Positions 32,460 to 34,393 of a stretch of 35,769 bases of DNA are shown in pieces (position 1 is the first letter of the stretch; the number at the start of each line of letters is the position of its first letter). Source of the DNA: Terriglobales bacterium (GTDB lineage Bacteria > Acidobacteriota > Terriglobia > Terriglobales > Acidobacteriaceae); assembly GCA_015655315.1 (NCBI GenBank), contig JAATFH010000264.1:1-35769 (forward strand). The letters run 5' to 3'. Made by a program: the position numbers and the translations under genes. Under the pieces are notes generated by a model. It had not been told where the DNA came from. It worked only from the letters and a program-made list of their open reading frames with translations, and searched no databases.

Positions 32460-33197
32460 ATGCGTGAACAAAACACCACACAAATCGGCGAACATACAAC
32501 ATCGCATGCCATCGCGCCGTGGTGGCACACCGTTCTGCTCATCGCGCCGCTTCTCGCCTTTTCATTGCTCGGCAGCCTCAAGCCCGCACATCAAGCACTC
32601 AGCCAGCATCATATTCGGCAATACCTCGTCACGCTTGCCTGGGAATGGATTCTCGCCGCGCTCGTCCTCTGGGGCATCCGCATGCGCGGAACTCCTCTTC
32701 GCCAGCTTCTCGGCGCGCGTCGCTCTACCTTGCGCGACTGGAGAGACGACATTATCTTCGCTGCCGGCTTTTGGATTGCGTCGGTCATGATCCTTATGGC
32801 CATCGGCATCCTGCTCAAGCTCGCGCATCTCCCGACGCCGCAGAAAGCTCTCGCGCAGCTGGCTCCACAAAATGCATTGGAGCTGCTGTTATGGATACTA
32901 CTCAGCATCTCCGCCGGTATTTGCGAGGAGCTTACCTTCCGCGGTTATCTGCTGCAGCAGTTCTCGCGCGCAGGCCGCAGCCTGTGGTTCGGAGCTATCG
33001 TCTCCTCTCTTCTCTTCGGCATCGCGCACGGATACGAGGGCGCGAGCGGCATGATTGCCATCACCATATTCGGTGTTCTTTTCTGCCTGCTCACAATCAC
33101 GCGCGGCAGTCTTCGCCCTGGAATCATGGCGCATGCATGGCACGATATCTTCTCCGGAATCGCTCTCATGCTGCTGAAACACGCGCATGCGTTTTAA
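32460..33197 (+). CDS. CPBP-family intramembrane metalloprotease
   Basis: A 245-residue polytopic protein with about seven hydrophobic helices. The CPBP (CAAX/Abi) signature is complete: motif 1 ICEELTFRGYLLQQF gives the Glu-Glu pair and Arg, motif 2 LLFGIAHGYEG gives a His, and motif 3 IMAHAWHDIFSG gives two further His residues. The family includes Rce1-type proteases and bacterial proteins for bacteriocin immunity or envelope proteolysis. AAGGA lies 9-13 nt before the ATG. It is divergent from the thiolase and lies directly upstream of the promoter of the lysine-rich peptide gene. Confidence 0.9.
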   Translation: MREQNTTQIGEHTTSHAIAPWWHTVLLIAPLLAFSLLGSLKPAHQALSQHHIRQYLVTLAWEWILAALVLWGIRMRGTPLRQLLGARRSTLRDWRDDIIFAAGFWIASVMILMAIGILLKLAHLPTPQKALAQLAPQNALELLLWILLSISAGICEELTFRGYLLQQFSRAGRSLWFGAIVSSLLFGIAHGYEGASGMIAITIFGVLFCLLTITRGSLRPGIMAHAWHDIFSGIALMLLKHAHAF

Positions 33198-33270
33198 GTT
33201 TTCGCCATCACTTTCGTCATGACTTCGATCCCGAACGAAACAGTCAATCGCAAAGTTTGTCATTTTTTTC

Positions 33271-33299
33271 TTGACACTCTTTTTTAGGAACTCTATACA
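33271..33299 (+). promoter_or_regulatory. Near-consensus sigma70 promoter
   Basis: TTGACA (33271-33276), a 17-bp spacer and TATACA (33294-33299) form an almost ideal housekeeping promoter, the best in the window. Transcription should begin near 33306. It would drive a short unit of about 165 nt containing only the lysine-rich peptide gene. Confidence 0.8.
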
Positions 33300-33306
33300 T
33301 TCGTTA

Positions 33307-33329
33307 ACTGCAGCATTTGTTGTTGCAGT
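33307..33329 (+). promoter_or_regulatory. 5'-terminal hairpin in the leader of the lysine-rich peptide gene
   Basis: ACTGCA (33307-33312) and TGCAGT (33324-33329) are perfect 6-bp arms around an 11-nt loop. The arms start at the predicted 5' end of the transcript, a position where hairpins can protect an mRNA from 5'-dependent decay. A ribosome binding site GGGAG (33339-33343) follows and remains unpaired. Confidence 0.45.
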
Positions 33330-33354
33330 ACACGAATAGGGAGAATAGAAAATT

Positions 33355-33423
33355 ATGGCAACCAAGAAAGCAGCAAAGAAGCCAGCGAAGAAGGCAACCA
33401 AGAAGGCAGCAAAGAAGAAGTAA
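33355..33423 (+). CDS. 22-residue Lys/Ala-rich histone-H1-tail-like peptide
   Basis: The frame encodes Met-Ala-Thr-Lys-Lys, then repeats of Ala-Ala-Lys-Lys, Pro-Ala-Lys-Lys, Ala-Thr-Lys-Lys and Ala-Ala-Lys-Lys-Lys, ending in TAA. Twelve of 22 residues are Lys and none is acidic. The pattern matches the C-terminal tails of histone H1 and of bacterial HU/Hc1-like proteins, but here no folded domain is attached. Support that it is a real gene: a near-consensus promoter, a leader hairpin, GGGAG 11 nt before the ATG, and a perfect terminator stem beginning 21 nt after the stop. It probably binds DNA or RNA without specificity, or acts on acidic membranes. The Lys codons AAG/AAA alternate in a repeat-like fashion, so slippage-driven length change is likely. 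Confidence 0.72.
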   Translation: MATKKAAKKPAKKATKKAAKKK

Positions 33424-33444
33424 GCAAGCAACCAGGCAACACCA

Positions 33445-33471
33445 AAGGGGGACGCCAATAGCGTCCCCCTT
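33445..33471 (+). terminator. Strong hairpin terminator after the lysine-rich peptide gene
   Basis: AAGGGGGACGC-CAATA-GCGTCCCCCTT is a perfect 11-bp stem with a 5-nt loop, G/C-rich at its core. The outer bases AACAC and GTGTT (33437-33441 and 33473-33477) may extend the stem further. It lacks a long T-run (AGTGTTTCT follows), yet its strength and position between two genes argue for termination of the short transcript before rsmE. Confidence 0.8.
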
Positions 33472-33528
33472 AGTGTTTCTGCGGCATTTCACTTTTCTGC
33501 GACAATAAAATTCTGACGACGCGCCCCC

Positions 33529-34260
33529 ATGACCAGACGTAGATGGATTGCCGATAGTTGGGACGAGCACACCGCATCGCTTACCGGCGAGCAGGCTTCG
33601 CACCTCATCCGCGTGCTCCGCGCGCAGCCCGGAACCGAGTACGACATCGTCGCCGGAGATCGAGTCTGGCACGGCGTCATCGCCGGCATCTTCGGCGACG
33701 CCGTCCGCTTCAACCTCATCGGCGAAGTAGAGTCCGATCCTGCTCTGCCCATCACCCTGCTGCTTTCCATTTTCAAATTCGATCGTCTCGAATGGGCGAT
33801 CGAAAAAGGAACGGAGCTGGGAGTCGAGCGTATCCTCCCCATCATCGCGCGCCGCAGCGAAAAACATCTCGCGCAATCGGCGCAAAATCGCGTGGAGCGC
33901 TGGCGCCGCATCGCCCGCGAATCCGCGCAGCAATCGCGCCGCTCCGATATCCCGGTCATTGAAGACGTGCTCCCGCTGAAAACAGCCGCGCGCCAGAGTA
34001 GCGAGGCCACTCGCATCCTGCCCGCCGAGCAGGAGCGCTCAACCTCGCTGCGTCACGCCGTCGAGGAAGCGATAAAGAAGGCCGGAGAGGAAATGCCGTC
34101 CATCCATCTGGCCGTCGGACCGGAAGGTGGATGGACAGCCGACGAAGAAGCCCTCTTCGGGGAAGAGGGCTGGAGATCTGTAAGTCTGGGACCGCGCATC
34201 CTCCGCGCAGAAACTGCGGCCATCACAGCAACAGCAGTCGTGGCTGCATTGCTGGAGTAA
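33529..34260 (+). CDS. rsmE: 16S rRNA m3U1498 methyltransferase
   Basis: A 243-residue SPOUT methyltransferase. The N-terminal PUA-like domain (about 1-70) has LTGEQASHLIRVLRAQPGTEYDIVAGD. The knotted catalytic domain has FKFDRLEWAIEKGTELGVERILPI, RSEKHLAQSAQNRVERWRRIARESAQQSRRSDIP, and the SAM-binding knot IHLAVGPEGGWTADEEALF and VSLGPRILRAETAAI, all diagnostic for RsmE. It methylates N3 of U1498 in 16S rRNA, at the decoding region of the small ribosomal subunit. It lies between the terminator of the peptide gene and a repeat-filled gap. In many genomes rsmE is near dnaJ, as it is here, though on opposite strands. Confidence 0.95.
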   Translation: MTRRRWIADSWDEHTASLTGEQASHLIRVLRAQPGTEYDIVAGDRVWHGVIAGIFGDAVRFNLIGEVESDPALPITLLLSIFKFDRLEWAIEKGTELGVERILPIIARRSEKHLAQSAQNRVERWRRIARESAQQSRRSDIPVIEDVLPLKTAARQSSEATRILPAEQERSTSLRHAVEEAIKKAGEEMPSIHLAVGPEGGWTADEEALFGEEGWRSVSLGPRILRAETAAITATAVVAALLE

Positions 34261-34299
34261 TTGCAGGCACCCTTAGAAAATTGCCAGCCTGAGCTGAGT

Positions 34300-34333
34300 G
34301 TCATCCTGAGCGCAGCGAAGGATCTGCTTTTTC
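34300..34333 (+). repeat. Dispersed repeat, half copy C
   Basis: GTCATCCTGAGCG, followed by CAGCGAAGGATCTGCTTTTT, matches the left arm of the repeat family at 30228 and 34526. The matching right arm is not present nearby, so this is a truncated copy. It starts 40 bp after rsmE. The 34334-34390 stretch after it shows no gene. Confidence 0.75.
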
Positions 34334-34393
34334 GCATCGGCCGGCACCGATCCGCATGGAGCAAAAATTTGAGAAAAGATTTGGATCAGGCAG

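Follow-up and report, generated by a model that had tools for sequence, protein, structure and literature searches.

A single-copy gene of Terriglobia for a lysine-rich micropeptide, carried on a possibly bifunctional RNA

Few groups of soil bacteria are as abundant as the Terriglobia. In the window (the whole analysed stretch of DNA, 35,769 nucleotides from a Terriglobales bacterium), a preliminary description pointed to a self-contained, overlooked unit for a minimal Lys-rich peptide, which raises the question of whether so small a locus is a gene and, if so, whether it acts through its peptide, its RNA or both. Based on comparisons with related units throughout the class, we propose, at odds slightly better than even (roughly 0.55), that the locus specifies a bifunctional transcript with an SgrS/SgrT-like layout, encoding a minimal Lys/Ala polycation. 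The gene is present once in most Terriglobia genomes, yet none of the libraries searched has a family model for it, and gene finders with a 30-aa floor are blind to the micro-ORF.

The unit in the window and across the class

The promoter-to-terminator unit is confirmed at 33271-33471 of the window, spanning about 200 bp (Table 1). Promoter, 5' hairpin, ribosome binding site, 22-codon Lys/Ala frame and perfect 11-bp terminator all lie where they had first been placed. A 17-nt spacer separates TTGACA from TATACA, a pair that occurs once in the 35.8 kb window at a chance expectation of 0.04 (at most one mismatch allowed). The initial wording of a near-consensus promoter is generous for the -10 hexamer, which agrees with the consensus at 4/6 positions; a generic promoter scan missed the promoter because TATACA is without the final T. 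The window transcript (33303-33478) folds at z = -3.7 relative to shuffles, beginning with the hairpin and ending with the perfect terminator. Elsewhere in the window, GTCATCCTGAGCGCAGCGAAGGATCTGC (34299-34335) resembles an intergenic repeat that is dispersed through many genomes of acidobacteria.

Table 1. Elements of the unit and its neighbours, in window coordinates.
Feature	Position	Strand	Observation
CPBP/Rce1-like membrane protease (PF02517), upstream neighbour outside the unit	32460..33197	+	
T-tract and -35 hexamer TTGACA (33271-33276)	33263..33276	+	TTTT.CTTGAC invariant in 23 relatives and the class-wide alignment; exact spaced match
-10 hexamer TATACA	33294..33299	+	TATAC invariant in 23 relatives; T.TA invariant class-wide
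5'-terminal RNA hairpin, ACTGCAGC-loop-GTTGCAGT	33307..33329	+	MFE fold; 149 distinct leaders
GGGAGAATAG box; GGAG within it is the ribosome binding site	33339..33348	+	Nearly invariant; GGAGAA kept class-wide
Micro-ORF, ATG start, 22 codons, Lys/Ala, peptide MATKKAAKKPAKKATKKAAKKK	33355..33423	+	161 distinct homologous units, codon test
3' UTR box AGGCAA, after the stop codon and before the terminator	33434..33439	+	Enriched in 3' UTRs; kept in ORF-less genera
Intrinsic terminator AAGGGGGACGC-CAATA-GCGTCCCCCTT and T-rich tail	33445..33480	+	Perfect 11-bp stem 33445-33471
RsmE-type 16S rRNA methyltransferase (PF04452), downstream neighbour outside the unit	33529..34260	+	

Both RNA ends recur among the relatives. 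The 149 distinct leaders fold at a mean z of -3.6, and the first stem begins no more than 15 nt from the expected 5' end in every one of them (149/149); the hairpin arms vary in sequence yet remain complementary, as in CTGCAGC/GTTGCAG (L001) and CTGCGGC/CCGCAG (L007). Terminators are detected in 139/156 distinct downstream regions, compared to 2/156 after shuffling.

A DNA search of 61 genomes yielded aligned units from many genera, and in the resulting alignments (A1 and A2) the conserved blocks are the promoter, GGGAGAATAG, ATGGCAAC and the terminator. RNAalifold applied to A1 paired the T's of the promoter with the leader, a spurious structure since the promoter is not transcribed, and profile R1 was therefore built from sequence only. 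The unit, which the preliminary description proposed to look for in other acidobacteria, is found as one copy per genome in 72/74 sampled genomes of the window's own family (f1, Acidobacteriaceae-type), comprising 71 with one R1 match each and one, G311, recovered separately; the class-wide profile R2 has matches in 144/250 class genomes. Edaphobacter, Granulicella, Terracidiphilus and Ca. Sulfotelmatobacter are among the named genera matched. R1 matches in families other than f1 are weak, and nearly all of them have a short Lys/Ala peptide encoded where it would be expected. Three families (f4, f7 and f9) are apparently without the unit by both profiles. Outside the class, R1 matches 0/134 genomes, and R2 gives weak, mainly promoter-covering partial matches among which the unit itself was not found. 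A simpler class-wide pattern, GGGAGAATNG..ATGGC, was discarded as too loose, its hits outside the family being mostly chance matches.

Two observations concern the edges of this distribution. The unit was not found in genus g57 (G264, G299 and G407) and is present in its sister genus g9, apparently a complete loss, and a MAG contig labelled Phycisphaerae (L223, JAIORC010000276.1) bears the unit, probably as a mis-binned acidobacterial contig.

The genes that follow the unit differ between clades. Among 184 coding loci, some of them short, rsmE lies downstream on the same strand in 69, on the opposite strand in 19 and is absent from 96, and families f6, f8 and f10 have other genes at this place; hence the unit is a free-standing gene. 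These changing neighbours also argue against a leader peptide or attenuator that acts on the downstream gene via lysine codons. The order of short Lys-rich ORF, terminator and, in the window, rsmE would fit such a device, which would need a fixed downstream gene; we consider it very unlikely. The unit is conserved class-wide as an autonomous single-copy gene of Terriglobia (Acidobacteriota).

The micro-ORF and its peptide

The 161 distinct coding units that were read encode 102 distinct peptides that are 12-32 aa long, and a single one reaches 76 aa; those of family f5 are shorter still (10-13 aa; e.g. MKKAKKKKKR and MPAKKKAKKKR), so that the overall range is 10-32 aa. About 50% of the residues are Lys and about 30% Ala. 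Most peptides start with M(A/KN/KC/KS/P)..TKK and end with KKK, KKR or KKH. Such K-rich peptides occur in all ten families read (f1, f2, f3, f5, f6, f8, f10, f11, f14 and f15), and the start, the K-rich frame and the stop are all maintained whatever the length between 10 and 32 codons.

Changes between 88 nearest-neighbour ORF pairs fall on codon positions 1/2/3 in the proportion 88/52/386. The nonsynonymous fraction is 0.281, compared to 0.685 +/- 0.017 when the same changes are placed at random. This strong bias towards synonymous changes indicates that the peptide is made and selected, and it is near certain, as judged from the codons, that the micro-ORF frame is coding and under purifying selection. 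The compared frames show selection on charge and composition rather than on exact sequence or length, both of which drift. Together, the class-wide conservation and the protein-level selection bear out the initial proposal of an overlooked gene for a minimal Lys-rich peptide.

The same data weigh on a purely non-coding sRNA, in which the Lys/Ala frame would be a by-product of A/G-rich RNA. RNA that is kept without the frame in genera g32 and g53 and in genomes G184 and G077 speaks for this reading, which is nevertheless refuted for the coding clades by the third-position excess, the drop in nonsynonymous fraction (0.28 vs 0.69) and the preservation of start, frame and stop in ten families; overall, we hold it to be extremely improbable. 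The least probable reading we considered is that the unit is what decay has left of a larger H1-like gene. The composition resembles H1 tails, a larger K-rich ORF exists in the source genome and one f6 member reaches 76 aa; against this stand the near-universal single copy, the short length in all families and the purifying selection. The likeness to a histone-H1 tail drawn in the preliminary description holds for composition and goes no further, as some members have merely 10-13 residues. A type I toxin, i.e. a short hydrophobic membrane peptide, was rejected, the peptide being about half Lys and without a hydrophobic stretch.

The 76-aa member (L125, in genome G229 of family f6) is a micro-ORF grown to Lys/Ala repeats, a bridge from micropeptide to H1-like proteins. 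The larger ORF of the source genome (L003:1200-1800, G000:C170, at a contig end) is Lys/Ala/Ser-rich and H1-like; its 3' UTR carries CCAGGCAAGCAAAAG ahead of the terminator, which resembles the AGGCAA box of the micro-unit.

Searches of Pfam and NCBIfam with two 22-aa members and the 76-aa member gave no match at E<=1, and neither the peptide string nor the element was found in a literature search.

RNA-level constraint after loss of the frame

AGGCAA is present in 71/132 distinct 3' UTRs compared to 1.9 expected from shuffles, in raw counts that include shared ancestry. The box is confined to f1; families f6 and f8 have the peptide and no evident box.

In two genera the unit persists without an ORF, in 45/47 genomes (19/19 of g32 and 26/28 of g53). 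Both keep the promoter, the 5' hairpin, GGGAG (as a GGGAG..AAGGCAA box) and the terminator, and the Lys-rich ORF was not found in any g32 or g53 copy read. In g53, the box at the former ORF, GGGAGCGCAGGCAAACGCAACCA(A)GGCAAAGCA (GGGAGCGC..AAAGCA), has a mean pairwise identity of 0.974, and AAGGCAACACAC one of 0.962, compared to 0.80 for the promoter, 0.65 for the hairpin region, 0.692 for rsmE coding sequence and 0.373 for post-terminator DNA. A 1-nt indel within the box (CCAAGG/CCAGG) splits the species into two groups, and the box is thus not a conserved frame. Many compensatory pairs are seen in the g53 terminator stem. A frame reading through into rsmE in some g32 genomes was dismissed, as an indel in a close relative breaks it.

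In g51, the coding relatives have this box as well, located 3' of the stop codon (CCAACCAAGGCAAA). In the gyrB tree, coding g51 is the neighbour of g53, and g32 branches outside the pair; the node joining g53 and g51 has a support of 94/92, slightly below the tool's starred threshold. From this placement, the ORF has been lost at least twice. Further ORF-less copies occur in G184, inside g51, and in G077 of family f6. The latter (L453), another independent ORF loss, keeps GGGAGAATCG and the terminator, and its promoter T-tract is gone.

These comparisons show RNA-level constraint that persists without the ORF in g32, g53 and G184, as read from the aligned copies. As at least two lineages have lost the peptide and kept the RNA, a second role for the RNA itself is probable. 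The preliminary description had held that relatives with a broken frame and intact hairpins would point to an sRNA instead of a peptide. Such relatives exist in two genera and in single species; the peptide stands wherever it is present, and an additional RNA-level role is suggested.

The main rival follows from the position of the ORF-less copies: in g32 and g53, rsmE lies immediately downstream on the same strand at every such locus with enough sequence. The unit could thus be a peptide-only gene for a highly expressed polycation that binds nucleoid, ribosome or polyphosphate, its remains in g32 and g53 having been recycled as promoter and leader of rsmE, with no trans-acting RNA. Codon-level selection, the constant adjacency of rsmE and the presence of the peptide in all deep families, when the 3' box is found in f1 only, agree with this account. 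It explains less well that the terminator between the box and rsmE is maintained through compensatory changes, and that the AAGGCAA box is shared by coding relatives in which another, convergent gene lies downstream. Moreover, g53 loci (e.g. L152) show strong conservation of CAGTATCCTG, which sits 10-20 nt upstream of the rsmE start codon and may serve rsmE as a promoter of its own, leaving it a very short leader. We regard the peptide-only account as possible and rather doubtful.

Targets for the RNA were sought with the 17-nt complement of the g53 box in eight g53 genomes; near-matches recur inside ABC-F and other coding genes, none of them convincing. Rfam searches of the window and the ORF-less units, at gathering and permissive thresholds, returned nothing credible and no family at gathering score.

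Proposed mechanism and comparison with known systems

For the bifunctional transcript that we favour, we propose the following mode of action. A strong sigma-70-type promoter would give rise to an RNA of about 170 nt that starts with the 5'-terminal stem-loop and finishes with the terminator; with hairpins at both ends, the RNA should be stable. From GGAG, an ORF of 10-32 codons would be translated into a disordered Lys/Ala polycation, most likely a small diffusible counter-ion that coats polyanions such as DNA, RNA/ribosomes or polyphosphate. Binding to nucleic acid or another polyanion is probable from the charge, and the product is predicted to be abundant; the nucleoid role and very high expression suggested in the preliminary description are candidate properties. 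In f1, the RNA carries a second element, the unpaired AAGGCAA-type box between ORF and terminator, and selection retains this box, together with promoter, 5' hairpin, GGGAG and terminator, after ORF loss. The transcript would then double as an sRNA and as the message for a small protein; its retention is observed, and regulation in trans is what we infer from it.

A broader view, which we offer tentatively and hold at somewhat less than even odds, is that the unit is bifunctional and belongs, as an RNA gene, to the single-copy core of Terriglobia; its peptide would be a free-standing 'histone tail' of 10-32 aa, among the smallest nucleic-acid-coating polycations, and its RNA half would be a separate regulator that outlives the peptide in several lineages. 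If so, a bare charge pattern of 10-32 residues, with no fold or fixed sequence, would be seen to be selected over a whole class. Relatives with and without the ORF exist naturally, so that genetics can tell the RNA role from the peptide role.

Among known proteins, the H1-like AlgP, HctA/HctB and BpH1 share the Lys/Ala/Pro/Thr composition, as in the KPAA repeats of AlgP. The KPAA-repeat tail of AlgP, a protein tied to polyphosphate granules and DNA, is needed for granule spacing (PMC9239181). These proteins are larger, however, the AlgP tail alone having 154 aa, compared to 10-32 aa and no fold here. The coding sRNA ORFs surveyed in 14 species by Friedman et al. 2017 have ORFs of 10-50 aa, sRNA-sized transcripts and coding selection in common with the unit; that set is enriched in transmembrane and type I toxin peptides (PMC5521070), whereas the unit's peptides are soluble polycations.

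Closest in layout are the dual-function sRNAs SgrS/SgrT, VcdRP and SR1/SR1P, which likewise are short stand-alone transcripts with a small ORF in the 5' part. There is no sequence relation to any of them, and a polycation is unlike SgrT or the 29-aa VcdP (PMC8672173). With SgrS/SgrT the unit further shares a conserved unpaired segment between ORF and terminator and a history in which some lineages have kept the RNA and lost the ORF; SgrT is absent in Yersinia, and its start codon is mutated in E. coli O157:H7 (PMC4021124). The traits of an SgrS/SgrT-type gene found in the unit are therefore a selected small ORF in a short terminated transcript, an unpaired segment apart from the ORF (in f1 only) and constraint after ORF loss. 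It differs from SgrS/SgrT in that its ORF predates its RNA box and has the broader distribution of the two.
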